This document shows, one piece after another, positions 3,050 through 29,517 of a DNA stretch of 32,376 nt (the stretch's first letter is position 1; each line of letters starts with the position of its first letter). A program made the translations under genes and the position numbers. This stretch comes from a virus. The stretch is from positions 1 to 32,376 of the IMG/VR virus record IMGVR_UViG_3300042350_000642. One strand, written 5' to 3'. The notes under the pieces are model-generated. The model worked only from the letters and a program-made list of their open reading frames with translations. It ran no database searches and was not told the DNA's origin.

Positions 3050-3462
3050 GAGAGATTAATCAACGGTTTTGGGATGCCATGATTATTAGATCGTGGAATG
3101 AGTTTGGCAATTCTTACTTGCTGGGTATGGCATGTATGTATGAGTTTGGTGTTTATCCGCAAGAAACAGGCCTTTTAAGATCAACTAAATTAATTAAACA
3201 AGGTACAAGAGTATGGGTAGCACAACATTTAACACCTTTAAGTGAGAGGTTGTGGATTACACCTAAAAACAAACAGGTTGAGTTACTTGACTGGTTAGAA
3301 GAGACTAAATTAGATTGCATAATAAATAAAAAAGCAAAGAAATATGGCGTTGAGGCTGTTAGTAAATTAAGAACAAACCAATTACATTTAAAACAAAAAC
3401 GGTTATCAGGTGAAATGGAGCAAAGTTTAAACAGAAACAACATGTGGAAGGTGGTGAAATGA
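3046..3462 (+). CDS. Hypothetical protein (138 aa)
   Basis: A 138-residue basic protein coupled by ATGA overlaps to both neighbours. It is rich in Trp and aromatic residues in the first 90 residues (FWDAMIIRSWNEFG; WITPKNKQVELLDWLEE) and Lys/Asn-rich at the C-terminus. There is no signal peptide, membrane segment or metal motif. I do not recognise a family. The perfect fit in the overlapping operon makes it a real gene. Confidence 0.68.
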   Translation: MREINQRFWDAMIIRSWNEFGNSYLLGMACMYEFGVYPQETGLLRSTKLIKQGTRVWVAQHLTPLSERLWITPKNKQVELLDWLEETKLDCIINKKAKKYGVEAVSKLRTNQLHLKQKRLSGEMEQSLNRNNMWKVVK

Positions 3463-3656
3463 AATCGATACAAGTTGTTGTAGTAATGTGGATTTTATTT
3501 TGTGGACTCATTATCTATCTAACCGAAGTAAGTCGTAGAGAAGAAGTCTACAAATTAAACTGCGAACTATTACTAGGTGGTTGGCATCCTGATGTACCCA
3601 AAGATTACGCAAAGTTGTGTGAAGAGGCTAAACAAACAATGAGGAGCGATAGATGA
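3459..3656 (+). CDS. Small N-terminally anchored membrane protein (65 aa)
   Basis: I chose ATG 3459 rather than an upstream GTG at 3444 because it makes the usual ATGA overlap and has a GGAAGGTGG ribosome site. The product opens with a hydrophobic helix at residues 3-23 (SIQVVVVMWILFCGLIIYL) and then a polar 40-residue domain with two cysteines. This is a signal-anchor layout, with the C-terminal part probably periplasmic. It resembles the size of small spanin or superinfection-exclusion proteins, but it lies in the early operon far from the lysis cassette, so a lysis role is unlikely. No family recognised. Confidence 0.68.
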   Translation: MKSIQVVVVMWILFCGLIIYLTEVSRREEVYKLNCELLLGGWHPDVPKDYAKLCEEAKQTMRSDR

Positions 3657-3835
3657 TTATTAGAAAGGTGCGTGGGGAAAACAAAATATATCCTATAAAA
3701 ATAACTCAAGTTGAATTTGATATAGCAAAAAGACTAGGAATAAAACTTGAAGAATTTGTTAAAAAGTATCTTGTTACGATTGCAAAACAAAGAAAATGGA
3801 AATGGTTTTTTGAAAAGAAAGCGAGGGAGCTGTGA
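3653..3835 (+). CDS. Small basic protein of unknown function (60 aa)
   Basis: A 60-residue, strongly basic protein (MIIRKVRGENKIYPIKITQ at the start; KKYLVTIAKQRKWKWFFEKK near the end). ATGA overlap with the previous gene; its stop is overlapped by the GTG start of the alpha-CTD-like gene. The pattern 'K-I-T-x-x-E-F-D-I-A-K-R-L-G-I' suggests a short helix-turn-helix-like segment, but too little is present to call one. Coupling to the next gene hints at a shared role in transcription; that is inference. Confidence 0.62.
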   Translation: MIIRKVRGENKIYPIKITQVEFDIAKRLGIKLEEFVKKYLVTIAKQRKWKWFFEKKAREL

Positions 3836-4269
3836 TAGATATTAAATTACCAATCAGTGCTTTAGGTTTAAATGTTAGAGCTATGAATTGTTTGAAACAT
3901 GGTTCAGATATAAAAACCATAGAAGATTTAATATTGTACGAAAAAGATTTGTTAAGAATACTTAACTTAGCAAAAGGTACGCACAATCACATAAAAGAAA
4001 AACTTGCCAAACACGGCCTATATTTAAAGACAGATCCAAAAAGTTTAGAGGTAACTCCAAGCAATTTAGAGGTAGACAAACACATCAAGGATTACATTAT
4101 CAGTCAACAAAAGATTGAAATAGAAGCGTTGCGTAAATTGGTTGAAGAGCAAGACATAAAAATTCTTGATTTAGTATTTGACTTAGCGTATGCAAACAGA
4201 ACGGATGAGTTTCGTAAAGATCCAATAGCTTTTGCAAAAGCAGTTTTAAAGGAGGCAATTGAAAAATGA
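3832..4269 (+). CDS. RNA polymerase alpha C-terminal-domain-like protein with coiled-coil tail
   Basis: Residues 7-65 line up with the C-terminal domain of the bacterial RNA polymerase alpha subunit over its whole length, with one single-residue gain and one loss. In LNVRAMNCLK, R16, N19 and C20 match E. coli R265, N268 and C269. The stretch IKTIEDL matches IHYIGDL, and NLAKGTHNHIK then matches NLGKKSLTEIK. In E. coli this helix-hairpin-helix domain binds UP-element DNA and activators. Three of the other contact residues differ (A47 for G296, G49 for K298, T50 for S299). The alpha N-terminal domain needed for polymerase assembly is absent. In its place residues about 80-145 form a charged, probably coiled-coil tail. 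GTG 3832 has a GGGAG site and overlaps the previous stop. It could compete with, mimic or recruit host alpha-CTD. Confidence 0.85.
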   Translation: MIDIKLPISALGLNVRAMNCLKHGSDIKTIEDLILYEKDLLRILNLAKGTHNHIKEKLAKHGLYLKTDPKSLEVTPSNLEVDKHIKDYIISQQKIEIEALRKLVEEQDIKILDLVFDLAYANRTDEFRKDPIAFAKAVLKEAIEK

Positions 4270-4478
4270 AAGCATTTCCAAGTACTGAACCGATTTACAG
4301 AAACGATATAGTTGGTGTTAAAGAGAGTAGCGGTATGGATTTAAGAGATTACTTTGCCATCCAATTTGCTACCAATCAATTAAAGTTAATTGTAGAAGGT
4401 CGAGGGTTTGATGCGTTAGAAACCTTTAAAACATCCTACAAGCTGGCTGACATTATGATGAAAGCGAGAGAGAAATGA
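4266..4478 (+). CDS. LRDxFA-family small phage protein, copy 2 (70 aa)
   Basis: This 70-residue protein has the same core as the gene at 2867-3049: DLRDYFAIQFA at residues 25-35, then YKLADIMMKARE at the end. A 24-residue N-terminal extension (starting MKAFPSTEPIYRND) is absent from the shorter copy. Coupled by ATGA overlaps on both sides. Function unknown. It directly follows the alpha-CTD-like gene. Confidence 0.7.
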   Translation: MKAFPSTEPIYRNDIVGVKESSGMDLRDYFAIQFATNQLKLIVEGRGFDALETFKTSYKLADIMMKAREK

Positions 4479-4768
4479 CTAAGCCAGTAGCGTGGATGGC
4501 ATCGAACGAATTACTTTTCAGTGTAGTTAAAGACGAGATTTACCATATTCCACTTTATACCCATCCAATGCGTGAGTTAACCATGAACCCTGACATCTTG
4601 CCTACGCTTGAGGAGTGGAAATTAATTTGCGCAATGGTTAAGCAACAGCGTGAAATGTCCGATGATGAGATAAAACAAGTGTATGGCAAATACTTTGATG
4701 CAAAGCATTGTGACTGGTTGCATTTGCAATGTATCAGGGAAATATTAGAAAGAGCGGGGGAGAAATGA
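4475..4768 (+). CDS. Small phage protein with KPVAW / PLYTHP motifs (97 aa)
   Basis: The N-terminal part carries KPVAWM at residues 3-8 and PLYTHPMRELT at about residues 26-36. I recall this pair of motifs from many short phage proteins of unknown function, where they act as an N-terminal cap on varied C-terminal parts. The rest is acidic and helical (LPTLEEWKLICAMVKQQREM onward). Coupled by ATGA overlaps to both neighbours. Role unknown. Confidence 0.7.
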   Translation: MTKPVAWMASNELLFSVVKDEIYHIPLYTHPMRELTMNPDILPTLEEWKLICAMVKQQREMSDDEIKQVYGKYFDAKHCDWLHLQCIREILERAGEK

Positions 4769-4944
4769 ACAAGTATCAAGAAACTTTATATTTTTGGTAT
4801 GAACCAATAAGTAAAAAATTTTTAACTGACTTTGAGTGCGCTGGCTCACCAAACATAAAACTTGTCTATGACATTAAAAGAAACAAAATTAAATTTCTTG
4901 GATATCACAACGGTGGCAAACTAATAGAAAAGAGGGGTAAATGA
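4765..4944 (+). CDS. Hypothetical protein (59 aa)
   Basis: The start at ATG 4765 is preferred over an upstream in-frame start at 4729 because it forms the operon's usual ATGA overlap with a GGGGGAG ribosome site. The 59-residue product is basic and aromatic-rich (MNKYQETLYFWYEPISKKFL) with a predicted beta-rich second half. No recognised family. It starts a more AT-rich stretch than the upstream genes. Confidence 0.62.
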   Translation: MNKYQETLYFWYEPISKKFLTDFECAGSPNIKLVYDIKRNKIKFLGYHNGGKLIEKRGK

Positions 4945-5153
4945 AAAAAGATTTTGAAGAATGGGCGCATGGCAAGATTTCACTAGCTCACGAAGGTAGG
5001 TCTTACGCTAACACAAGCGCACAGGTTGCTTGGTCGGCTTGGCAAAGAGCTTGGAATTTAGCCATTAAGAAACAACGACAAAAGGATGAAGAAGAGATTG
5101 AACATTTAAACCTTGTAATTTCTGTAGCATCAAAAGCACTTAATTCGAAGTAA
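4941..5153 (+). CDS. Small phage protein with AWxAWQxAW motif (70 aa)
   Basis: The sequence FEEWAHGKISLAHEGRSYA at residues 5-23 followed by VAWSAWQRAWNLAI at about 29-42 is a pattern I recall from many short phage proteins, typically 'FexW....Y....tq.aWeaWqaa'. The C-terminal 25 residues are a charged helix. ATGA overlap with the previous gene. No function is known to me for this family. Confidence 0.7.
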   Translation: MKKDFEEWAHGKISLAHEGRSYANTSAQVAWSAWQRAWNLAIKKQRQKDEEEIEHLNLVISVASKALNSK

Positions 5154-5177
5154 AACCTTAAAGAAAGAGAGAACTAA

Positions 5178-5420
5178 ATGAGTGAAAATATAGAAGCCGG
5201 CTGGGAAACGTTATATTCACAATCAAAAACTACAGCAGAGGATTATTTTTTCTTTGCTAGGGCTTTGTTAGAAAAGGAGGATATAAAATATTCGGCTGCG
5301 GATGTAATTGCATTAGCACAAGTAATGGCTTACGATTTGCGTACAACAGCTATACTTGTTTCCGCTCAAAAGATTAAGGTTGCTATCGAACACTGGGCGA
5401 TGGTATATGACAGAACTTGA
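5178..5420 (+). CDS. Hypothetical helical protein (80 aa)
   Basis: ATG 5178 follows a 24-base gap that contains AAAGAAAGAGAG, a purine-rich ribosome site. The 80-residue product is soluble and helical by composition (TTAEDYFFFARALLEKEDI; ADVIALAQVMAYDL). No recognised family. It overlaps the next gene by 14 bases. It is one of only two internal genes in the early operon separated from its upstream neighbour by a gap, the other being the gene after the 159-base leader. Confidence 0.66.
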   Translation: MSENIEAGWETLYSQSKTTAEDYFFFARALLEKEDIKYSAADVIALAQVMAYDLRTTAILVSAQKIKVAIEHWAMVYDRT

Positions 5421-5550
5421 GTACTACAAAACAATAGCCGAACTACAGGCCGAGTGTTTAACTAAAGATAAAATGATTTATGAATTTCAATATCTAATTA
5501 AAGACTTAAAGTATCAAATTGAACAACTAGAGAAAGCACTTAATGACTGA
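5407..5550 (+). CDS. Small coiled-coil protein (47 aa)
   Basis: I placed the start at ATG 5407 (MTELEYYKTIAELQAE), not at the longer frame from 5356, because the longer version would overlap the previous gene by 65 bases with an out-of-character N-terminus. The 47-residue product is one continuous charged helix with heptad spacing of Leu/Ile, so it is probably a coiled coil. Overlaps the next gene by eight bases. No known family. Confidence 0.6.
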   Translation: MTELEYYKTIAELQAECLTKDKMIYEFQYLIKDLKYQIEQLEKALND

Positions 5551-5863
5551 CTATTGCACTGAATCGAATACGTTTGCCCCAGCAAACAAATGTTTCCCAT
5601 TAAACAGTCCAGATAAAGCTGTAATGAAAAACTGGCTTAAAAATAAAAATGTTTATGTAGGTGAAACACCAATAGGAAATAGGCACTTTTGTCCATTTGT
5701 ATTTACTACTGGATTCCGATTTATGGACGTTATTACTGGATCTATGTATTTACCAAACGGGCAATGCCTATCTTCTAGTTATTTAAGGGTAAAAAGTTTT
5801 ATTAAATTAAAAGAAGATATACCAGAATTGATTAAAATTTTACTTAAAAGTAGGAAGAATTAG
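5543..5863 (+). CDS. Hypothetical protein (106 aa)
   Basis: A 106-residue protein with four cysteines (residues 5, 17, 50 and 75 approximately) and many aromatic residues. It opens MTDYCTESNTFAPANKCFP and ends in a basic helix. The cysteine spacing does not match a zinc ribbon I recognise. Its base composition is clearly AT-rich compared with the exonuclease/ERF end of the operon. It is the last gene before the structured gap. Real by operon fit; function unknown. Confidence 0.62.
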   Translation: MTDYCTESNTFAPANKCFPLNSPDKAVMKNWLKNKNVYVGETPIGNRHFCPFVFTTGFRFMDVITGSMYLPNGQCLSSSYLRVKSFIKLKEDIPELIKILLKSRKN

Positions 5864-6353: not shown

Positions 6354-6546
6354 CCAGCTCCGTGACGGGAAAGGGCGTGGTATCAAAGCGCACGATTATC
6401 GCATTGCAGCGCTATGCTACGGTTGCCACATGGAGCTTGATCAGGGTACAAAAATGTCTAAACAAGAGCGTGTAGAAATGTGGGACGAATCCCACCGGAA
6501 GACTATAGGTTGGCTGTTTGAGAACGATCTATTGTCGGTTAATTGA
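6259..6546 (+). CDS. YbcO/HNH-like putative nuclease (95 aa)
   Basis: The protein has a zinc-binding nuclease layout: C16-x-x-C19, then AAHSNQ with H30, a GKGRGIKAHD segment, and C53-x-x-C56-H57 followed by MELDQG. This order (Cys pair, A-H-x-N, K-x-x-D, C-x-x-C-H-x-x-x-D) resembles the lambdoid YbcO/DUF1364 family of putative nucleases and more distantly the NinG/HNH group. Such enzymes may cut recombination intermediates. That would fit the exonuclease/ERF pair in the same operon. The ribosome site is weak (ACGGGG, seven bases upstream of ATG). The gene ends the early operon and overlaps the converging late operon by 18 bases. Confidence 0.72.
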   Translation: MYRNKKLLEIVRKSPCQYCGTQDGTVVAAHSNQLRDGKGRGIKAHDYRIAALCYGCHMELDQGTKMSKQERVEMWDESHRKTIGWLFENDLLSVN

Positions 6547-9500
6547 CTTCCTTATTTTCTCGGCATTTTCTGCCGCCTGTGAGATCAAGACTTTCATGCG
6601 AATAATCTCATTCTCTTTATCCTCTTTTGACATTTCTTTATTATTGGTTATCATATTTATATATCTTCTATAAGACGCTAATTGATCTGTTGTTTGATTG
6701 TATATCTTCTCTAGCGCAATTAAATTACCCTTTTCTGCCATTATTTCAGCAACCTTTTCCATCTCACCCTGCTCTGCATAACGCTTCATATCTGCAAATG
6801 CTTGGTTGATCCGGTTACTATTCTCATAGAAGTTAGTTACATACTTAGACTGCGCTTCTGGTAACTCTTTAGCAAACCCAAGAGCATACTGATCTAACGC
6901 TGGCTTGCCGGGTTTTTCTATCTCACTAAACGGTTGTACCGCTTTGTCAGATACAGACGCTACAGTAGAACCTAACCAGCCAAAGTATGTCTTGATTGCG
7001 TAATCCATCTGTACAGGAGAAATGCCCTGTGCTTCAGGATTCATGGTTAATATCTTAGACGCTCCGCTAGAAATGCCGCCTAACGCCTTGGCTAATTCAC
7101 TTGTGTTATTACTAAACCGTTCCTGTTTAGAAAGTCTTTCCATACCGGAAGTCTCTATAGGCGCACCTGTAAAGCTATCTTTGTTAGCGTAAATATCAAT
7201 CAACGGCTTAACAACTTGAGGAGTTGGATTTAAAGATAATGTATCTACAATAATAGCTTTCATCCTATTGTAAAAGACTTTACCCTCTACATCTTCATCA
7301 CGGATTTGCTCTAATGACCGCTCTGCTATCGTACCTAACGCACCTATTTCAAACGGTTTTGGTAGACGATATGCTGTGTCACCAACCTTAAACCACCAGA
7401 AATTATCACGATCCCAATCTTCACGTTTCTTAAAGTCTTCGTCATCCTCATAGGCCATGTATAAGCCCATAGATGCCAGCATGACCGCACTAGATACTAT
7501 TGAGAACCTTTGCGCTTTAAGCCTGTCTGATTCTTCTATAGGCTTGCCTGTGGACATATTACATAGAACACGATAGGTAGGTGTAACCCCATCTCTACCG
7601 AGCTTATATAGACCTTGTAACCGAGTATTAAAGAATGGCACTAATTGAGAGACAAGCTTAACCGCACGGAAAGATCCTTGGCCAGTAAAGTTTAATAGAT
7701 CCCTCGCGGCAAATGATGCCTCTAAATGAGTCTTACCTTCATCAATCATCTTCTGATACAAGGCTAGACGGTTGGCGTTTTCAAACCTGTTGCCAAACTC
7801 GTTATAACGCTCGTACATATCAACAAGGATATTCTTTATTTGAGACGGATCAGTAAGTATGGTATCTTTTTTTGTACCTTTATTTATCAATCTTTTAATC
7901 AAGGCTGCCTGATCACCTTCATGCGCAGCGCCTAACTCAAACACGCCACCACCAGCTAAAGCGGAAATAAAGGTTGGATTGCCACGATCACTGAGCTTAA
8001 GTCCACGTTGTACGTTATCTAAGACGTTAAGACCTACAGGGCTTATACCTGCGGATGCAATCGTATCACGGAACAAGTTTCTAATTTTATAGCCGGGTGA
8101 TAATGTAACACCAAACCGGAGGGCGTTGGTAAATCCTTTTGCTATATCTAAGAACGGAGACTTTGGACCAAGAAAACTAATTAATGAAATAGACTCTACT
8201 AAGTCAGGATCGTTTACGGCAAAGTATGCCTTCTTACCATTCATCATAGTAGTAATAACATTCTTACCTTCGTAAGTACTCTTGACTTGTACAGCAGCTT
8301 GTAAATTTTCCGCAGCCAATAAGGTAGAATTAGCAGCCGCATTTTTCATCGAGGCAGAAAGAATATGCGACCAGTTACGCAACACGTTCTCCATCAAATC
8401 ACCCATCCGTTCCTTCTCTCCACCTTTCAAAGCTTTTGAGAAGTACTGACCAGTTAGTTTTGACGAATCCTGTACGGACACAATATTTCCATCTTCCATT
8501 TCTTTATAAAATGGAATGTAATATATGTCATTAGCAAACCGATTGTAGGCTTCTTGGTCTATAACGCCTTGTTGTTTTGCTACGTCTAGGACAGAACGGT
8601 TTAATGCGTTCTCTTCATTTAAGGCTGTTCTATATAATCCACCTCGTGGCTTACCATCAATATCACCTTTAAGTAACTCATTACGCCTTGCAACTTCGGC
8701 CGCTGGAAATGATGGACTTGCCGGCTCTTTACCACGATCTTTAGGGGCTAACGCCTTCCAAGCGTTATATTTCTTAGCTACTTCTGCGTCACGGTTTAGG
8801 GCTTTCCATACTTGATATCGTTCTACGTCTGTGCCTAACGGCTTCATTATTTCAAGTAAACCTTTTGTTCCCTGTCTTATATCTAGCGCACCGTCTTTTA
8901 TGTATACCTGTCCTTGCATTAGAAGTCCATCAAGCCCGCCATCGACAGACTTAGACAATACCGCCTTCATGTAAGCATCTTGGCTATACTTTTTAATAGC
9001 ATAAAACTCGTCAAATAAGCCAGTAATTAACCGGTCAAAGAAATTAGGTTTTAACTCTGCAAACTTTTCTTTAATCGTAGATTTTTTAGTTGGTCCAAAT
9101 CTAGTTCTTAATTTATCAGCGTATTGTAGATCTACACCATCCATAGAATCTAATGCAAATTGCAAAGTTGAATCATTTTCAGAAAAAGCCTCCTTTGCAT
9201 ATTGTTTATATTCTCCACTTATGGGAATTAAATTTTTAACATTTAAAGTTTCTCCACTTTCAGGATAAGGTTTTCCATCTTTATCATATGCGCTGATTGA
9301 ACTAAATTTTTGACCTTTAATGTCTAAAGAATCTATAACTTCTGCTTTTGGATTCCAATCTCTTGTATTAATAACAACAGGAACTTGCTCAATTCCAGCA
9401 TTTGCAAGAGCTAACATTCTGTGCCGGCCTTCATGTTGTTTTATAACTGCCTTGCCATTAATTAAATCAATATCTAAATATATTTCTTGATATTCTTCAG

Positions 9501-12500
9501 CAAGTTTTTGGGGATCTAATTTTGTAACTTCCTTGTCTAATATCTTTCGCATATCCTTTGTAGTTGTTGCATTAACAAAATCCATAGGATTTATATATGC
9601 AATATATGCTTTAGCTGTTGTAGGCCGACCAGAAACGGAATAATAATTAAATATAGAGTCTATTCGTTCTGGAGTATATCCAGCAACACCTTTTGTTTTT
9701 TCTTTTATTTCTTCTTTTGCAAATAAACTCTGCTGTGATTTTGTGCTTATCGGCTCTATCGTTTCCGGATTAAAGTTAGAGTTACCAACTTCTTTAGTAA
9801 CGCTATCCATGTAAGTTTTAAATGTCTCAGTAGGTAAGTACTTTTGATTGCGCAGTTTTTGATAAAATTGACGCAGTGCAGCACCAAGCCGGCTAAAAAA
9901 TCTTTCTACAACAGTTAAAGGCTTTTCTTGTGTAGTTGCCCACTTAGCTGTTTGATCTGCATACCATTCAGCAAAAGACTTCCAGTATCTTTCAACATTT
10001 TCAAATTGAATATTCTCTCCGCCAGCAGTGGTCTTACCCATCTTCCTAGCTCGTAAAGCATCAATTAAATTTCTACCTGTCTTACCTTTTAAACCCATTA
10101 GAAACTTATTATGTTCTGCTTGTAACGCATTTTTTACAGCTTGCGGGGCGTTTGCGTACACTTGTTTTTCGTGAACGTGACCAAGCTCGTGCGCTATGAT
10201 TTCGAATGTTGCGTTCTTTGATGGAAGCTCTCTAAACGCTACAACAAAATTTCCATTCCCAACTTCATAAGCAACACCCTTGTCGTTTTTGCTTACATTT
10301 GCCATAACTCTTCTAGCGGCAATATCTGAACCGGTAAAATTGTTATAGTTTTTCTTAACATCATTAAATGTAGTGACGTAAATATTACCCGTTAAGCCAA
10401 GCATATCTTTCCAGCCGGCAATAACTCCCGCCAAATCTTTTGAAACATCAGAAGATACAGCTATTCCATTTTTGTACTTTATAAATGGAGTTTTTTCGTG
10501 TTTATCTTTTGCTTGTTGTTTTAAGAACTTTGTTGCAGCCAATAAGTCTTTAGCCATATCAGGAGGAATAAATTTCTTTATCCAACCGTTATCGTTATCT
10601 ACCTCTATCTGCAACATTGGTAGAGTGCCTTTATACATTGGCTTATAGATAACTTTACCTTTTGGGTGAATTGTTTCTAGCAATCCATAGTCACCATTTT
10701 TATAAGCAATCCTACCATCTGAATACTTTTTATCAGACGGTTCAACTATTTCACCCATAAAACCTTTGGCAAAATCCAAACCCTTTTGACCGGAAAGATT
10801 ATCTTCAGCATCCTGTCCAAGTTCAAAGTCTTTAGCTGCGCCTTCACTACGGGCGGTAACTTCTTTCTTCTCAGCATCTTTCTTTTCTTTATCTTCTACT
10901 TCTTTCTTGGCTTTATCTTCTTTATCTTGCTGGGCTTTCTTCTCTTTCTCGGCCTGTTCTAAACTTTCTGGAGTTGTAACTTTTAAATCAAAATCTTTTT
11001 TAGGAGCTTTTTTTCTTTTAGCAGCTTGACGTTCTTGATTAATTTCAGCCTGTGTTTTAACTTCTTCTTTAGGGGCAATTTGCTCAATAGGTTTATTAAC
11101 ACCAAGCTTTAGGTTTTCTCTAATCTCAGCAATTAACTCAGAGTAACTAGACCATCTATCCCATTTAGCCTTTGCTTGTCTTAGCTCCTCTATGCGTTTT
11201 TGTACTGCCGCCTCATCCTTAACGTCAATGCCTTCAGCCCGTGCTATCTCCGGCCTCTTTGCTGCGCCAGTTATTGCACTTAATCTTTGCCCTAAATCAC
11301 GCTGTACCTTAGATGCATACTCTGCCATTTGCTCCGCTTCACGCATAGCAGAATCATCAAACCCAAACAAGTCCCCTGTGGATTCACGATCACCAGTCAT
11401 AGACTTAACTGCTTGCATTAGGTTAATGGAGTTAGTAATAGACTTACCATCCATCACCGCCTTTATACCTAGATTTTGCAATGCAGCATCTTGTGGTGCG
11501 GTTTCCGCTATTTGAGTGGCCGCTTCATCGCTGATGAGATCGGCACGATGCGAGGCAACGAGGTCACTGACTCCGTTAGTTGCGATGGAGAACGCCCTTT
11601 TGCCTGTCGCTCTTGCCAGAACTCCGCTAGACTCTGCTTCTTCTCTGGTGTAGCCCGGTCTTTGGAAGAATTGTACATAATCTTTTACCTTTCCTTGTCC
11701 TTCACGGATATTAAGTAATGCATCTAATGACGCTGCCTGTTCAACATTAAACCCGTCAGCCTCTCTATGAATCTGTGCTGGTATAGTCTGCTCACCACTA
11801 CGCTTGGCTAAATCAAATCGGTGTCTTCCTGAGATAATTTCTAGGTTGCCACCCAATCTTTCCCATACTTGAATAGGTGCTACGCCCGTTCTATCAAACT
11901 TACCACCTAGAGCTTCAACAACTCCTTCTTTAGATGCGCCCGATTTAAATTGTGGAACATCCTTAGATAACGATAGGTCTGCAACCGGTACTTCAAATGT
12001 TTGTAACCCTTCAATTATTGATGGAGTATCAAATTTATCCACCTTAGTAGGGTCATTTTTGCCCTGTATTTCGTCTAAAATAGGCTCTAAATTAGGCTTT
12101 TTATCGCTGGAACTTATTGATTCTATTGGGGTAATTGGCAAAGTGGTAACGTTACCACTTGGGGCTTCTTCCTTAACTTTTTCAGGTTGTATTATAGGTG
12201 TTGGTTTTATTTCAGGCGTGGGCTGTATTACGGGTGGCGACTGTAATTCAAGCGTCTTTTGTGGCTGTACGGCTGGTGTTTTAGTAATTTCAATTGGTGG
12301 CAATACTTGAAAGAACGGAAGCTCTAAGAATTTGTCTATTTTCTGTTGTGTTTGTGGGTTTTTATTTTTATTTCTTAAATTTAATAACTCTGTACGCACT
12401 ACAGCAGCTTTATTAGGATCGCCTAAATCTGCACCAACAACCGCAGGATTCTTATATATTTGAGCGGACGGACCAATACCCAATACCTTTAAAGTATCAG

Positions 12501-13893
12501 GAGTGACAGTCCTCAATAACTGTTCTTGTCTCTGAAGAGCAATCTGCTCAAATATCTGAGCTTGATTAACATCATCTACAGACTGACCAACTTGACCGGC
12601 CTCTGTCCCGTAAAAAACTGGTGGAACAATTGCTTGCTGTCTAGTTGGGGTAGATGGTGGAAGATTTGCATATCTAGATCCTTCTACTTCTTTTGTTCTT
12701 GGATATGGATATGCTTGTTTTAATCCGGCATTTGTAAACTCATCTACAGGATTTTCTCTAAATTGATTCTCTTGTTTTGGAAACGCAGTAGACCCATTTG
12801 GATTAACCCGAATAGGAATATTAATAACTGTTCCTTCAACATTAGGATCGTAAGTTAATAATAGGACTTCTTGAGATTCGCCCTTCTCGGCGGCAACTCT
12901 TTGTGCTTCAAGAATATCGCTTCGTGCTTTAGACTTATTAACAGACCTACCATAGATACCTAAAGGTCCAAGTAGAGCCACATCAAACGCCGTTTCTCCA
13001 TAATTACGCAAAGCTTCTGGGCTAAACAAGTCTTGTTCAGACTGTACTCTGCCCAACATTTGCTGAGTTATCTCAACTGGCATTTCTGTTAATGCAGTTC
13101 TTGTTGTGCCTTTTACAATTGTTCCAAAGTCTCTACTTTGTAAACTAGGAAGGAATGTTTCTTTAGCCAGCTTTTCTTTTGCTAATTGCTCGGCTTCTTT
13201 TGTAGCGCCCTTCTTTAGTAAGTCTGAGACTTCTTTACCAAAAATACCGCCAACTATAGTTTTACCAAAAGGAATAAAGTTTTCTGCTACTTCTAGACCG
13301 GCCATAGGAACAGCAAATCCTGCCGCCCTTCCTGCATTTACGTCTACTTTCTCACCCTTTTCTTTTTGTAGCTGGGCTTGTTGCTGTATGTTTCCACCGT
13401 ATTCGCTAAAGAAGAATGGTAGGAATGTACCAACGATACCGCCACCAATTGCACCATACGGACCTAAAGGCGAACCAGCCATAGCGCCTACTCTAGCACC
13501 ACCAAACGCCGTAGCAAGTGTTGGAACCTGTTCCGCTATTGCGCCCGGAATTTCACCTAGTGCTGTACCGGCAGCAGATAGTAATCCCTTTTTGTTATAC
13601 GCCTCCTCAACTTTACTTAATCGAGACTGATCTCCGCCTAGCCTTTGCTGGATATCTTCTTGCCGTGTAATGCCTTCTTCTGCCGCCTTATTAGGATCAA
13701 ATATACCGCTAATACCAGCTCTAACGCTAGATCCAAATGACTCAGCACCACGTTGTACATCAGTAAGTAAGCTTTCTTTTCTTTTTGGCTGGCGTTCTAA
13801 AGTTAATCTTTTAACTGTTTTCTCAATAACAGACGGATCTGTATCTTCAGGAAACTCTAGCCTTGTTCCATCAAATAGTTCTGCTATTGGCAT
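6529..13893 (-). CDS. Giant polyvalent/internal virion protein with ParB-like, metallopeptidase-like and LPD38-like regions
   Basis: This 2454-residue protein ends the late operon. In order I see: a short N-terminal domain (LFDGTRLEFPEDTDPSVIEK); a Gly/Ala-rich hydrophobic stretch at about 115-165; a ParB/DdrB-like domain at about 630-830 with ISGRHRFDLA near 685; a Lys/Glu linker at about 970-1015; and a zinc-peptidase motif HELGH at 1235-1239 with a possible third ligand E1309 in FAEWYAD. Then follow a second ParB-like HEGRHRMLAL near 1484 and a long C-terminal part with LPKPFEIG near 2180, typical of the LPD38 domain. It ends in a charged helix after a membrane-like segment near 2080-2120. 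This architecture matches the 'polyvalent proteins' of phages and conjugative elements, thought to be injected with DNA to counter host defence. The ribosome site is weak. Confidence 0.85.
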   Translation of the reverse strand: MPIAELFDGTRLEFPEDTDPSVIEKTVKRLTLERQPKRKESLLTDVQRGAESFGSSVRAGISGIFDPNKAAEEGITRQEDIQQRLGGDQSRLSKVEEAYNKKGLLSAAGTALGEIPGAIAEQVPTLATAFGGARVGAMAGSPLGPYGAIGGGIVGTFLPFFFSEYGGNIQQQAQLQKEKGEKVDVNAGRAAGFAVPMAGLEVAENFIPFGKTIVGGIFGKEVSDLLKKGATKEAEQLAKEKLAKETFLPSLQSRDFGTIVKGTTRTALTEMPVEITQQMLGRVQSEQDLFSPEALRNYGETAFDVALLGPLGIYGRSVNKSKARSDILEAQRVAAEKGESQEVLLLTYDPNVEGTVINIPIRVNPNGSTAFPKQENQFRENPVDEFTNAGLKQAYPYPRTKEVEGSRYANLPPSTPTRQQAIVPPVFYGTEAGQVGQSVDDVNQAQIFEQIALQRQEQLLRTVTPDTLKVLGIGPSAQIYKNPAVVGADLGDPNKAAVVRTELLNLRNKNKNPQTQQKIDKFLELPFFQVLPPIEITKTPAVQPQKTLELQSPPVIQPTPEIKPTPIIQPEKVKEEAPSGNVTTLPITPIESISSSDKKPNLEPILDEIQGKNDPTKVDKFDTPSIIEGLQTFEVPVADLSLSKDVPQFKSGASKEGVVEALGGKFDRTGVAPIQVWERLGGNLEIISGRHRFDLAKRSGEQTIPAQIHREADGFNVEQAASLDALLNIREGQGKVKDYVQFFQRPGYTREEAESSGVLARATGKRAFSIATNGVSDLVASHRADLISDEAATQIAETAPQDAALQNLGIKAVMDGKSITNSINLMQAVKSMTGDRESTGDLFGFDDSAMREAEQMAEYASKVQRDLGQRLSAITGAAKRPEIARAEGIDVKDEAAVQKRIEELRQAKAKWDRWSSYSELIAEIRENLKLGVNKPIEQIAPKEEVKTQAEINQERQAAKRKKAPKKDFDLKVTTPESLEQAEKEKKAQQDKEDKAKKEVEDKEKKDAEKKEVTARSEGAAKDFELGQDAEDNLSGQKGLDFAKGFMGEIVEPSDKKYSDGRIAYKNGDYGLLETIHPKGKVIYKPMYKGTLPMLQIEVDNDNGWIKKFIPPDMAKDLLAATKFLKQQAKDKHEKTPFIKYKNGIAVSSDVSKDLAGVIAGWKDMLGLTGNIYVTTFNDVKKNYNNFTGSDIAARRVMANVSKNDKGVAYEVGNGNFVVAFRELPSKNATFEIIAHELGHVHEKQVYANAPQAVKNALQAEHNKFLMGLKGKTGRNLIDALRARKMGKTTAGGENIQFENVERYWKSFAEWYADQTAKWATTQEKPLTVVERFFSRLGAALRQFYQKLRNQKYLPTETFKTYMDSVTKEVGNSNFNPETIEPISTKSQQSLFAKEEIKEKTKGVAGYTPERIDSIFNYYSVSGRPTTAKAYIAYINPMDFVNATTTKDMRKILDKEVTKLDPQKLAEEYQEIYLDIDLINGKAVIKQHEGRHRMLALANAGIEQVPVVINTRDWNPKAEVIDSLDIKGQKFSSISAYDKDGKPYPESGETLNVKNLIPISGEYKQYAKEAFSENDSTLQFALDSMDGVDLQYADKLRTRFGPTKKSTIKEKFAELKPNFFDRLITGLFDEFYAIKKYSQDAYMKAVLSKSVDGGLDGLLMQGQVYIKDGALDIRQGTKGLLEIMKPLGTDVERYQVWKALNRDAEVAKKYNAWKALAPKDRGKEPASPSFPAAEVARRNELLKGDIDGKPRGGLYRTALNEENALNRSVLDVAKQQGVIDQEAYNRFANDIYYIPFYKEMEDGNIVSVQDSSKLTGQYFSKALKGGEKERMGDLMENVLRNWSHILSASMKNAAANSTLLAAENLQAAVQVKSTYEGKNVITTMMNGKKAYFAVNDPDLVESISLISFLGPKSPFLDIAKGFTNALRFGVTLSPGYKIRNLFRDTIASAGISPVGLNVLDNVQRGLKLSDRGNPTFISALAGGGVFELGAAHEGDQAALIKRLINKGTKKDTILTDPSQIKNILVDMYERYNEFGNRFENANRLALYQKMIDEGKTHLEASFAARDLLNFTGQGSFRAVKLVSQLVPFFNTRLQGLYKLGRDGVTPTYRVLCNMSTGKPIEESDRLKAQRFSIVSSAVMLASMGLYMAYEDDEDFKKREDWDRDNFWWFKVGDTAYRLPKPFEIGALGTIAERSLEQIRDEDVEGKVFYNRMKAIIVDTLSLNPTPQVVKPLIDIYANKDSFTGAPIETSGMERLSKQERFSNNTSELAKALGGISSGASKILTMNPEAQGISPVQMDYAIKTYFGWLGSTVASVSDKAVQPFSEIEKPGKPALDQYALGFAKELPEAQSKYVTNFYENSNRINQAFADMKRYAEQGEMEKVAEIMAEKGNLIALEKIYNQTTDQLASYRRYINMITNNKEMSKEDKENEIIRMKVLISQAAENAEKIRKSINRQ
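9060..9780 (-). other. AT-rich module inside the polyvalent gene (second ParB-like region)
   Basis: By hand count, sampled 60-base lines here are about 28-33% GC (for example the lines starting 9181, 9241, 9481, 9541, 9601). By contrast, 7321 is about 45% and 11221 about 53%. The reading frame is intact. The stretch encodes residues of about 1371-1611, which hold the second ParB-like HEGRHR motif and flanking alpha/beta sequence, for example GRPTTAKAYIAYINPMDF. The co-incidence of a composition shift with one apparent domain suggests an inserted or swapped module. Boundaries are approximate. Confidence 0.5.
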
Positions 13894-16076: not shown

Positions 16077-17504
16077 TTATTTAATCATATTTGCTAAAGA
16101 TAAACCGCCAAGCCCAATACCGGCTAGTTGGCTTGCAAAACTAGGTGGAGCTGCTGTTGTTGTCTGTGTACCATAAGTATCTCCAAGTGGAACGCCTCGT
16201 AAGATATTGGACATAGATCCTAACTGCTGTTCTGCAAACCCTGCTCCACGCATTACGTCTTGATACTGTGCATCTAACTGTTGTTGAGCAACGCCTCGTT
16301 CTGATCCACCATAAGCACCTAAAGCCGCAGCTCTTGCAATATCGGCCTGTTGTTGTAATGCGCCTTGCTGTCCTAGACCTTGACCCATTGCACCATATGT
16401 CTGACCTAACTGCCCTAAACCAGCAGCTCTTTGCAACTGAGCAGCTTGATTAGCCCGTTGCGCTTCTAGAGACTGCCCAGCACCAAGTTGCTGTATACCC
16501 AACTGTGCTTGCAGATTAGTCTGCCCTGTAGCCTGTTGAGCAGCTTGATTAGCCAACATAGCTTGCATATTCTGACCAGCGCCAAACTGCTGAACCCCAA
16601 GTCTAGCCTGTTGATTAGCTAACTGAGCCTGTTGTTGAGCTTGTTGATTGGCTAACTGAGCTTGTAAATTCTGTCCTGAGCCTAATTGCTGAACACCTAA
16701 TTGAGCTTGCAAGTTTTGCGCATTAGCAGATTGTTGTAATTGATTCTGAGCATTAAATTGATTCTGTGCATTTTGGAAAGCATTTTGTGAGCCTGTAGCC
16801 TGTATGTTCCCCATCTGCGTCTGAAGATTTCTTTGTGCCTCAGATTGCATTAATGCGTTTCTTGCACCACCGTAAGTACCTTGTCTAGAAGATCCTAAAT
16901 TAGCACCAACAAGTTGTTTTTGTGCATCCCGCATAGCCTCAGCTTTTTGTACATCAACAACATTCTGCTGGTACGGAGACATATACTGAGATACATTTTG
17001 TCCAAGATACTGTTGTGGACCAGCCATTTGATACTGATTTAAATTTTGAGCGTTTACGTTACCAGCTCCGGCTATATCAAATGATGACAGTCCTTGTGGG
17101 GCATTAACAGTTTGCGGTCCAGCCATTTGAAACTGTGTTAAGTTTGGCGCACTTACATTTGAACCACCTTGATACCCTGCTTTAGCCGCATCTAAAGAAC
17201 CTAATCCTGTTTGATAAGCAGATTGTCCTTGACGAAACTGCGTAGGCTGTCTCAAATCAGATATTTGTTGTCCAGCAGCTACTTCGTTAGGGGATAATCC
17301 AGCTATTCTCCCTGCGCCCGCTAATCCAGATTGATCTAGAACATCTCCATATCTTTGTTGATATGATTGGGAAAATAATTTTTGCGCTGCGGGTAGTAAT
17401 CCACCAGCAACACCATCTCCCGTTTGGCCAACACCCGTAAAGTACGGTTCTAATATAGCCGGTGTAGTGGTTTGTGCGGTACTTACGGTAGTATTTGTTG
17501 CCAT
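16077..17504 (-). CDS. Gln/Ala-rich internal or ejection protein (475 aa)
   Basis: An Ala/Gln/Asn/Gly-rich protein with no cysteine and very few charges. The central part (about residues 225-360) is built from repeats of the type NLQAQLGVQQLGSGQ. Earlier, two copies of a shorter unit occur (NLTQFQMAGPQ and NLNQYQMAGPQ). The C-terminus (about 400-475) is Gly/Ser/Thr-rich with LGGLSLANMIK at the end. This composition, and its place between two other ejection-type genes, fit a structural helical-bundle protein carried in the capsid, like P22 gp7/gp16/gp20 or T7 gp14-16, although I see no direct sequence match. It has an AAGGA ribosome site upstream. Confidence 0.7.
   Translation of the reverse strand: MATNTTVSTAQTTTPAILEPYFTGVGQTGDGVAGGLLPAAQKLFSQSYQQRYGDVLDQSGLAGAGRIAGLSPNEVAAGQQISDLRQPTQFRQGQSAYQTGLGSLDAAKAGYQGGSNVSAPNLTQFQMAGPQTVNAPQGLSSFDIAGAGNVNAQNLNQYQMAGPQQYLGQNVSQYMSPYQQNVVDVQKAEAMRDAQKQLVGANLGSSRQGTYGGARNALMQSEAQRNLQTQMGNIQATGSQNAFQNAQNQFNAQNQLQQSANAQNLQAQLGVQQLGSGQNLQAQLANQQAQQQAQLANQQARLGVQQFGAGQNMQAMLANQAAQQATGQTNLQAQLGIQQLGAGQSLEAQRANQAAQLQRAAGLGQLGQTYGAMGQGLGQQGALQQQADIARAAALGAYGGSERGVAQQQLDAQYQDVMRGAGFAEQQLGSMSNILRGVPLGDTYGTQTTTAAPPSFASQLAGIGLGGLSLANMIK
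16425..16830 (-). repeat. Gln-rich tandem repeats in the 475-aa protein
   Basis: The coded repeat is a Leu/Gln/Ala unit of roughly 15-25 residues. NLQAQLGVQQLGSGQ, ARLGVQQFGAGQ and NLQAQLGIQQLGAGQ are the clearest copies, joined by LANQQAQQQ-type spacers. The spacing is uneven, so the array probably grew by repeated slippage and recombination. Confidence 0.7.
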
Positions 17505-25667: not shown

Positions 25668-28600
25668 CTATCTAGATGCAAGTTGTTGTTTAAGTGAATC
25701 TACTTCTGCTTTTAACTCTTTTATTGCGTTAATCATGTACCAAGTTAAGTTATCTGCGTCTACAGTCATTACGCCTGTGCTTTCAGTCTTAACACACTCA
25801 GGTAGTACCTGTTGAAGTTCTTGTGCAATAACACCAAGTTGAACACCTTCTTTTTTAATAACAGAATGTGCTGGTAATTCTGTAACTTCTTCAGGTAAAC
25901 GGTACTCAAAGTTACGCACTTGGATTGCAGTAATCTTATCTAAACCTGTGTTGTTATCTACAATGTTCTTTTTAAGTCTTGCGTCAGAAGTTTGTGACCA
26001 AGTTGATGAGTTATTACCTTGATATACGCCACCACCAGCAGGGTTAATAAATCCTGTGCCAGTACCTTTACTAGCAGAGTTATATCCGATAACAATTTCT
26101 GATGAGTTATTTCCTCCTGACGGGTAAGCAAATCCACCAACATAAATGTTGGAGTTTCCAGTTGTTAAATCTGTTCCCCCTACTGGAGTACCGTAGCCAG
26201 CAGAAGTACCAATACAAGTATTGTTTGCGCCAGTAGTAATGGCATACCCAGCCTGATAGCCTACTGTTGTGTGGTTAGAGCCGGTGGTGTTTGCATATAA
26301 CGCTGCCTCCCCTATTGCAGTATTATTTGAACCTGTGGTGCTTGAGCCAAGGGCATTAACGCCTACTGATATATTGTAATTACCTGTTGTATTTGTATCA
26401 AGTGCGCCATGACCAACTGCAACATTCTGTGTACCAGTTGTATTTGAATATAAAGAATACGCACCATAAGCGGTGTTATAACTACCTGTAGTATTTGTAT
26501 ACCCAGAAAAATAACCTGAAAAAACTGATTGCGTACCTGTTGTATTTGAATATCCAGCTTGATACCCTACTGCTACGTTAGCAGAGGCGGAGGTGTTTGA
26601 AAGAAGAGCATTAAACCCTACCGCTACATTATTACCTCCAGTAGTATTGGAATACATAGCCGATGTGCCTACGCTTGTATTGTTAGCACCTGTTCCAGTT
26701 GAATACAAAGATTCATAACCTATGGCTATATTGTATGAGGCGGTAGTACTTGAATAAAGAGAATACATACCAACAGCAACACTGTAACTACCAGTAGTGT
26801 TGGAAGTAAGCGCACTTTGCCCAACACCCGTATTACGAACTCCTGTTGTATTGCCGTACATTGCATTTTTACCAACAGACGTGTTATACGAGCCAGTTGT
26901 ATTAGTGCGAAATGCATTATCGCCAACCGCTACGTTTTCTGTGCCTGTGGTATTTGAATATGCTGATTGATAGCCAACTGCTGTGTTACTAGATGCGGTG
27001 GTGTTTTTTGCTAATGAACCTGCACCAACAGCCGTATTAGAACCGCCTGTGGTTGTGCTTCCACCAGAGCCAAATGATGTTGAATCCTGACCACCAATAA
27101 AAGTGTTATATACCCCTGTGGTGTTGGAGTATCCTGCTTGTACACCAAAAGCCGTAACTAAGCCAGTAGTATTACTAAACCCTGCTTGATAACCAACTGC
27201 TGTGTTGTTAGAGGCTGTGGTGTTTGATGATAGTGCGCTATGACCAAATGCGGAATTTGCTGCCCCAGTAGTATTTGCTGCAAGGGCGTTATATCCAAAT
27301 GCGTTATTTGAACTAGCAGTAGTATTTGCTGTTAAAGCACCAACACCAACAGCGTTGTTTTGACTTCCAGTGGTGTTACTTTGCAACGCTCCAAATTGAA
27401 GTCCGGGGGCATAACCACCTACTGCTACGTTTAGTGTTCCTGTTGTATTTGCATACAAAACACTAGAGCCAACTGCTGTTATACCATTACCTGTTGTAGT
27501 ACTATAACCTGCCTGATAACCAACAGCCGTGTTGTGAGATGCAGTGGTGTTAAACCTAAGAGCAGAACGACCAATGGCAGTGTTTTGAGCGCCAGTAGTA
27601 TTTGACAAAAGGGATGCATCACCAAAAGCAGAATTGTCGCCAGCAGTTGTGTTTGCACCTAAAGCAGATGACCCAAAAGCACAATTATTAAATCCAGTTG
27701 TATTTGCGCCTAAAGCAGCAGCACCAAAAGCATTAACACCGCTTCCTGTTGTAGTACTTAATCCTGCTTGGTATCCTACTGCTGTGTTGTTTGAAGCGGT
27801 GGTGTTTGCTTGAAGTGCAGATACTCCAACAGCAGTATTAGATGCACCAGAAGTATTTAATGCAAGAGCATAAAAACCTAATCCAGTATTAAAACTTGCA
27901 GTAGTATTAGCCAATGCAACACGACCAATTGCTGTGTTTTGATTTCCTGTTGAATTTAACAACAATGCACTATCGCCTAAGGCTGTATTATCTATGCCAG
28001 TTGTGTTAGCGTTTAAAGCACTAGCACCAACAGCAGTATTTGTAGCACTAGCACCAGCACCACGACCTACTCTTACACCATAAACAGTTAAGTCAGTACC
28101 AGAGTATAAAAGGTTGGCTGAGTCTGTTAGTAGACCACTAGCACCTGCGTATGTTACTCGACCACTTGTTAGTCCTGCGTTGGTGATTGATGTTGATGCG
28201 TTTATCGTAGTAAATGAGCCTGCTGCTGCCGTATTAGCACCAACAATACCATCAAAATTAGCTGCGTTAATTCTGCCACTTACTCCTAAACCACCTGTAA
28301 TTACAGTAGTTCCTGTAGTCGTAGAAGTAGAAGCCGTCCCTGCGGTAAAGGTCGTAGCACCACTAGCGGATAAAACACCCGTAGTAAGAGAAGTCAGATG
28401 CGTTATAGCGTCTACTACGTTTGTACCGTTGTTATAGACAAACATGGTCTTACCAGCAGCTACGGCAATTCCTGTTCCTGTTGTGTTCTTAACCGTTACC
28501 GCATCCGCTAGACCGTTATTAACTAGGTAGAGTTTCTCAATTTGGCATCCAGAACCAAGGATTAAGTTCCTTGCACCGCCAGATGTACCTGTTAGGTTAA

Positions 28601-28818: not shown

Positions 28819-29517
28819 TTATGCCGCTATATCATTCCATACCGGAGTTTGTGTATCAATAATATCAGTCCAAGTAGGTGTTTGTCCATCATTTATCGCC
28901 CCCCAATTTGGCACTTGATTCGTATCTATAATGCCCCAAACCAATACCGGCTCTATCTCTCCTGTTGCTGATACACCTACTACATATACTTCAACAGACG
29001 GAACTACGGTTACCGTTCCTACATTACCTGTTGCACTTACACCTGTTACATTAACATTTATCTGTATAACTACTGTTACAGTACCAACTTGTCCAGTTCC
29101 GTTTACGCCCGTTACATTAAAACTAACGTCCGTTTGAATACTTACACTACCTACACTTGCAGTCCCTGATACTCCAGTAATATTTACGTTTACATCACAA
29201 GTAACAGTAACTAACCCAACTGCGCCTGTACCAGATACTCCTGTTACGCTAACTGCGGCGGTTCCTGTAACACTTACAGATCCTACACTTCCAGTAGAAC
29301 TTACTCCTGTTACTGAAACATTAGCATTTGCTGTAACAGTTACTGCTCCTACACTTGCTGTTCCAGATACACCAGTTAAACTTACATTTGCATCTGCATT
29401 TATAGTTACAGAACCTACTGATCCTGTTGCTACAAATGATACATTTCCATTACCCCAAGATGCCTCACCCCATCCTTGGCTTCCATAACCTCCTAGGGCA
29501 ATTGATACATCAGCCAC
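28819..29517 (-). CDS. Repeat-rich beta-structured virion protein (232 aa)
   Basis: The start is GTG 29517; an ATG two bases upstream is out of frame. After a Gly/Trp-rich N-terminus (GYGSQGWGEASWGNG, residues 10-24), residues 26-193 are about seven and a half repeats of 22 residues with the core VSVTGVSGTASVGSVTV. They probably form stacked beta strands. Residues 194-232 are a different repeat of 11 residues with the pattern W-x-x-I-x-D-x-Q-x-P-x, three full copies and a partial one. Both repeat types recur, as I recall, in environmental phage structural modules. It lies between the 145-residue virion protein and the tail fibre, so a connector or fibre-attachment role is possible. Confidence 0.72.
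   Translation of the reverse strand: MADVSIALGGYGSQGWGEASWGNGNVSFVATGSVGSVTINADANVSLTGVSGTASVGAVTVTANANVSVTGVSSTGSVGSVSVTGTAAVSVTGVSGTGAVGLVTVTCDVNVNITGVSGTASVGSVSIQTDVSFNVTGVNGTGQVGTVTVVIQINVNVTGVSATGNVGTVTVVPSVEVYVVGVSATGEIEPVLVWGIIDTNQVPNWGAINDGQTPTWTDIIDTQTPVWNDIAA
28939..29442 (-). repeat. 22-residue (66 bp) tandem repeats in the 232-aa protein
   Basis: Copies begin VSLTGVSGT, VSVTGVSST, VSVTGVSGT, VNITGVSGT, FNVTGVNGT, VNVTGVSAT and VYVVGVSAT, each followed by x-VG-x-V-[TS]-V/I. The first copy lacks the TGVS turn and the last degenerates after GEIEPV. The strictly regular 22-residue period suggests one repeat per structural layer. Confidence 0.85.

Follow-up and report, generated by a model that had tools for sequence, protein, structure and literature searches.

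Organisation of the locus and its virus

The window analysed here is the whole 32,376-nt stretch of IMG/VR record IMGVR_UViG_3300042350_000642. On its plus strand, at 3832-4269, lies a gene of 145 aa (GTG start, TGA stop; preceded by a Shine-Dalgarno-like GAGGGAG, read from the sequence, at 3823-3829), the product of which begins with a head related to the C-terminal domain of the RNA polymerase alpha subunit (alpha-CTD). The gene shares 4 nt with each of its plus-strand neighbours: GTGA with a 60-aa gene immediately upstream in the same operon, which has no Pfam family (3653-3835), and ATGA with the gene for a DLRDYFA-type small protein of 70 aa immediately downstream (4266-4478). Further upstream on the same strand, 3444-3656 encodes a small conserved membrane-type protein of 70 aa, which provided the syntenic marker for 44 viral loci. 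The operon around 3832-4269 is early-type, made up of small, tightly packed genes, and adjoins recombination genes. Elsewhere in the window, a 2454-aa protein (6529-13893) carries an LPD38 polyvalent-protein domain (E 3.6e-42), and internally repetitive structural-type genes are present at 28819-29517, 27143-27950 and 16438-16697 (VTGVSGTGSVG-type; tail-fibre-like; Gln-rich repeats).

A 58,312-base contig (G001) is essentially the virus of the window, extended beyond the 32-kb record, and its copy of the 145-aa protein is 100% identical. G001 encodes terminase, portal, major head protein, transglycosylase, a PD-(D/E)XK nuclease, an ERF annealing protein, a DEAD-type helicase and a Toprim protein, and the nearest cultured matches of its terminase are in Pelagibacter phages HTVC027P and HTVC023P (53-56% identity). 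In this 58-kb sister contig the scanned proteins included no recognisable RNA polymerase, a result that rests on a scan of the larger proteins and not on a PF00940 search, the control of which was silent; the host polymerase is therefore probably used.

With the conserved gene at 3444-3656 as anchor, the alpha-CTD gene was found in 2/44 syntenic loci, only in the window virus and in G002 (78% aa identity), and this rarity among related phages marks it as accessory. A third lineage of the head is carried by L102/L103. The heads of the three lineages stay open, with 34/70 residues invariant, and evolve under purifying selection (dN/dS 0.23-0.40 among the three heads), from which it follows that 3832-4269 is a real gene.

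An alpha-CTD head separated from RpoA

The alpha-CTD mediates the effects of UP elements and many activators on RNA polymerase. In the 145-aa protein the alpha-CTD head comprises residues 1-66 (3832-4029), of which residues 5-59 match RNA_pol_A_CTD (Pfam PF03118; E 1.7e-10; 40.9 bits versus a curated cut-off of 23.8). PDB sequence matches are to RpoA in all but the weakest, and rpoA models account for the significant NCBIfam matches, which cover only model positions about 235-338 (C-terminal part). The N-terminal dimerisation and beta/beta' contact domain of alpha is absent, as the protein starts at the CTD, and no second Pfam domain was found. The AlphaFold (AF2) model, a monomer built from 27 aligned sequences from the window and the loci, has a mean pLDDT of 85 and a pTM of 0.48, the latter expected for two parts joined by a flexible linker. 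It places the alpha-CTD helices at residues 8-11, 15-24, 30-34 and 48-60 in a compact helical fold with helix-hairpin-helix motifs, for which the top Foldseek matches in the PDB are RpoA CTDs (e.g. 8hvr_K, TMt 0.82, rmsd 1.4), DNA-bound ones included.

Profile, structure model and fold search thus bear out the initial annotation of this gene as a free-standing alpha-CTD that lacks the assembly domain; the AlphaFold comparison that it had proposed gave a predicted model matching solved alpha-CTDs, and the best profile and fold matches were to RpoA, not to another helix-hairpin-helix family. The alignment, which it had described as almost gapless, takes one 1-residue insertion and one 1-residue deletion. 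In sequence, and in the fold of the predicted model, the head is an alpha-CTD, and it is separated from RpoA.

No relatives of the whole 145-aa protein were found in the bacterial genomes or phage records searched. Head matches in INPHARED (MT839982, MT839913 and others) were rejected as cultured-phage relatives because two were inspected and proved to be bacterial rpoA operons, and most of the rest resemble rpoA. These two phage-deposited records (L016, MT839982.1; L017, MT839913.1) read as bacterial rpoA/ribosomal-protein operons, and several other 'phage' records matched look alike. Plasmid matches to a viral head were likewise set aside, since they resemble rpoA on chromosomes or large replicons.

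On the DNA-contact face, the alignment upholds the reading of R16, N19 and C20 as equivalents of E. coli R265, N268 and C269, and that of an altered second loop, with A47, G49 and T50 instead of G296, K298 and S299. K297 is kept (K48), E302 is replaced by H53 and E261 by G12. Of the complete 265 determinant (R265, N268, C269, G296, K298, S299, E302), a functional feature that PF03118 membership does not require, the window protein retains R, N and C and carries the changes G296A, K298G, S299T and E302H. Across the three head lineages, R265 is the sole invariant canonical residue of the UP-element face; K298 is lost, its equivalent being Gly, Ile or Val, the E261 equivalent is Gly and that of E302 His throughout, and the invariant residues include R16 (R265), T50 (S299) and H53 (E302). 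Equivalents of N268 and C269 are replaced in the L102 head. Among 21 further viral heads obtained by a motif scan (described below), where conservation of R265, N268 and C269 is biased by the search motif, G296 is kept and K298 and E302 mostly so, and all three are missing only in the window protein and G002. The head core carries a net charge of +3 in the window protein and G002, versus +1 in E. coli. As judged from its residues, the contact face is remodelled rather than erased, and still basic, which argues against a simple UP-element decoy and not against DNA binding as such.

A tail shared with other small phage proteins

Behind the head, the AF2 model predicts a low-confidence linker (residues 67-79; 4030-4068; pLDDT about 50 in block 71-80), a long helix (residues 80-129; 4069-4218) and a second tail helix (131-144). 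Residues 96-129 (4117-4218) form a core module common to other small phage proteins, and the end module, DPIAFAKAVLKEAIEK (4219-4266), is similar to the ...DPLEFARAILNKASEK ends found on many neighbours in related phages; all these parts are on the plus strand. This segment had been taken for a new coiled-coil tail. It is helical by prediction, and a coiled coil is plausible; a strong coiled coil is unsupported beyond composition, since the heptad score was matched by 553/2000 shuffled tails and is thus no better than that of shuffles. Nor is the tail new or specific to the alpha-CTD, as it recurs in small early proteins from related phages.

The tail core was identified, at 77-82% DNA identity and also at the protein level, in small genes that lack an alpha-CTD (L014, L015, L054, L055), and in L054 and L055 it is carried under MKPSAYISDGGILFKESPPDS..., a common head in these phages. 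Among the 44 syntenic loci plus the window, 24 distinct proteins have the DPIAFAKAVLKEAIEK-type (FARAIL-type) end and nine have the core motif, so that the 145-aa protein belongs to a set of shuffled small early proteins in which tail core and end are shared with differently headed members. The L102/L103 head, 62% identical to that of the window protein, carries another tail (...KLTDEEMLEVYKK...FDFAKAILKKASEQ). Head and tail thus move independently of each other.

G002, the nearest relative, shares with the window protein 55% of head residues (1-58) and nearly all tail residues, and dS between the two is 0.24 for the tail, 0.84 for the head and from 1 up to saturation for most of the other genes they share. 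A tail conserved by strong selection was rejected, because the tail is also unusually poor in synonymous change; selection on the protein does not account for the low dS, which points to an exchange of the tail later than that of its surroundings. On these comparisons, the alpha-CTD head and the tail have been combined by module exchange. A possible route, suggested and not proven, is offered by the encoded ERF annealing protein and by the resemblance of gene ends that meet in ATGA overlaps. The early region (3444-5863 in the window; in L056-L099, the first few genes after the match) resembles a kit in which heads, cores and ends of small proteins are interchangeable, with pieces including MKPSAYISDGG, MTANELADKL, NLVKEQ and FARAILKKASEK, with ATGA overlaps at the joins. 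The swapped tail illustrates how phages construct new small early proteins from interchangeable pieces.

Viral alpha-CTDs outside RpoA and their possible role

One motif scan identified an alpha-CTD in 31 viral contigs, and in none (0/31) was it part of a full RpoA; pattern-based scans of this kind miss divergent members. Partners in the scan include sigma-70 region 4, HD-hydrolase, HTH and many helical or unassigned extensions (several of the contigs analysed are short fragments, and E-values of the locus scans are relative to the candidates). A sigma-70 region 4 match and an alpha-CTD are combined in one protein above the Pfam cut-off in L024 (4593-5582) and L037 (5353-6219) and below it in L025 (5251-6174), L036 (5404-6192) and L040 (5776-6231). 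Such fusions hold both promoter-upstream contacts of RNA polymerase in a single polypeptide. An HD-domain hydrolase-like partner (YfbR-like, below cut-off) is present in L034 (5464-6186), L043 (5452-6177) and L045 (5452-6177), the alpha-CTD of L035 lies within a 1449-aa protein, and gp23 of the cultured Ruegeria phage vB_RpoS-V16 (L049, 2932-3798) joins an alpha-CTD to an annotated pyrophosphatase. Two ORFs with alpha-CTD profile matches lie close together in L021 (5794-6219 and, on the minus strand, 8343-8966), L040 (5776-6231 and 6268-6795) and L046 (5436-5690 and 5680-6219).

A free-standing sigma-70-region-4-like protein of 54-65 aa is encoded in 22/44 syntenic loci of related phages (examples at L058, 4451-4636; L101, 2631-2810; L102, 542-706). 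In G002 and L102/L103, two of the three head lineages, its gene lies two genes upstream of the alpha-CTD gene. Sigma region 4, fused in some phages and neighbouring in others, thus suggests a link to promoter recognition, although a suggestive one only, since neither the window phage nor G001 yielded such a gene.

Neither the 145-aa protein nor the E. coli CTD matched an alpha-CTD family in PHROGs, and no tested phage-encoded alpha-CTD was found in the open-licence literature. Alpha-CTDs detached from RpoA apparently constitute a broad phage class, undescribed in that literature and as a PHROG family. That they amount to a general, undescribed plug-in system, in which such heads, combined in many ways with sigma-region-4 domains, enzymes and swapped helical tails, would recruit phage proteins in trans to the host's promoters or polymerase with their DNA or partner preference changed, is a bolder and rather doubtful proposal.

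Without the domain for dimerisation and beta/beta' contact, the 145-aa protein cannot replace alpha in the polymerase, and its action would be in trans. We tentatively favour, short of calling it probable, a putative early transcription adaptor or regulator consisting of an alpha-CTD head on a helical tail. The remodelled, still basic head (R16, T50 and H53 invariant) would engage promoter-upstream DNA and/or host transcription factors that contact the alpha-CTD, with host RNA polymerase or regulators as further possible partners; the helical tail may serve in oligomerisation or docking to another factor, and the host alpha-CTD would be helped or displaced in trans at chosen promoters. The RpoA-CTD profile, PDB and fold matches, selection on the head, probable use of the host polymerase, sigma-region-4 fusions and neighbours and the head charge of +3 are consistent with such an adaptor, and the replacement of G296, K298 and E302 (UP contact) and E261 (sigma contact), the accessory status of the gene and the lack of a sigma-region-4-like gene in the window phage argue against it. 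That the protein may redirect host transcription, as first proposed, is a reasonable reading.

A free head could instead act on proteins, titrating host regulators that use the alpha-CTD (activators, anti-alpha proteins) off the polymerase and so shutting host promoters. Retention of the fold with erosion of the DNA-contact set would fit such a decoy, and detachment from RpoA would suit a competitor, but the alpha-CTD surfaces used by activators differ between hosts, and we regard this as unlikely. A PD-(D/E)XK nuclease and an ERF annealing protein in the operon, together with weak HHH_5 matches in some viral alpha-CTD proteins, would be compatible with a generic helix-hairpin-helix nucleic-acid binder reused for replication or recombination, not transcription; this is distinctly unlikely given that RpoA, and not HHH_5 or other such families, gives the best profile and fold matches, and that the sigma region 4 fusions point to promoters.

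Alanine substitutions at the UP-contact positions of E. coli alpha weaken UP binding. The earlier idea that the protein sits on UP elements and blocks the host alpha-CTD has R265 and N268 in its favour, both retained in the window protein, and a fold that matches DNA-bound alpha-CTD structures (e.g. 3n97, 1lb2); it is weakened by erosion of the 265 determinant in this lineage (G296, K298 and E302 in the window protein and G002, N268 and C269 in L102) and now appears very unlikely. Highly improbable is a by-product of module shuffling in an accessory region, devoid of specific function and heading for loss: the rarity of the gene among relatives and its swapped tail module would fit, but open heads in three lineages, with 34/70 residues invariant and dN/dS of 0.23-0.40, speak against such decay. 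The preferred adaptor reading, in which an alpha-CTD is paired with a swapped tail, looks, from sequence, like a modular way of hooking phage proteins onto host transcription. A phage alpha-CTD class with altered contact residues would supply natural variants for dissecting the binding partners of the domain, and might uncover a new way in which phages take over transcription.

Compared with the bacterial RpoA CTD (PF03118), the window protein has the same sequence profile, fold and R265/N268/C269/K297 equivalents, but differs in lacking the N-terminal domain, in the changes G296A, K298G, E302H and E261G, and in its helical phage tail. vB_RpoS-V16 gp23 (YP_009997157.1) likewise has an N-terminal RNA_pol_A_CTD match (E 1.2e-10) outside RpoA, but belongs to an unrelated phage, and has a longer, different partner (annotated 'pyrophosphatase') and no shared tail. 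The sigma region 4-alpha-CTD fusions (L024, L025, L036, L037, L040) are also encoded on phage contigs and detached from RpoA, with a DNA-binding promoter-recognition domain where the window protein has the shared tail. The T4 ADP-ribosyltransferases Alt and ModA modify alpha Arg265 (PMC2988021) and so place alpha-CTD function under phage control; however, they modify the host domain chemically and are not alpha-CTDs themselves. Rac of LUZ19 causes a cleavage that releases the alpha-CTD (PMC7552054), so that a free alpha-CTD arises in the infected cell; there it is the host alpha that is cleaved, whereas the window phage encodes its own variant domain. As the host alpha-CTD is already a phage target in these two systems, an alpha-CTD owned by the phage is biologically sensible.
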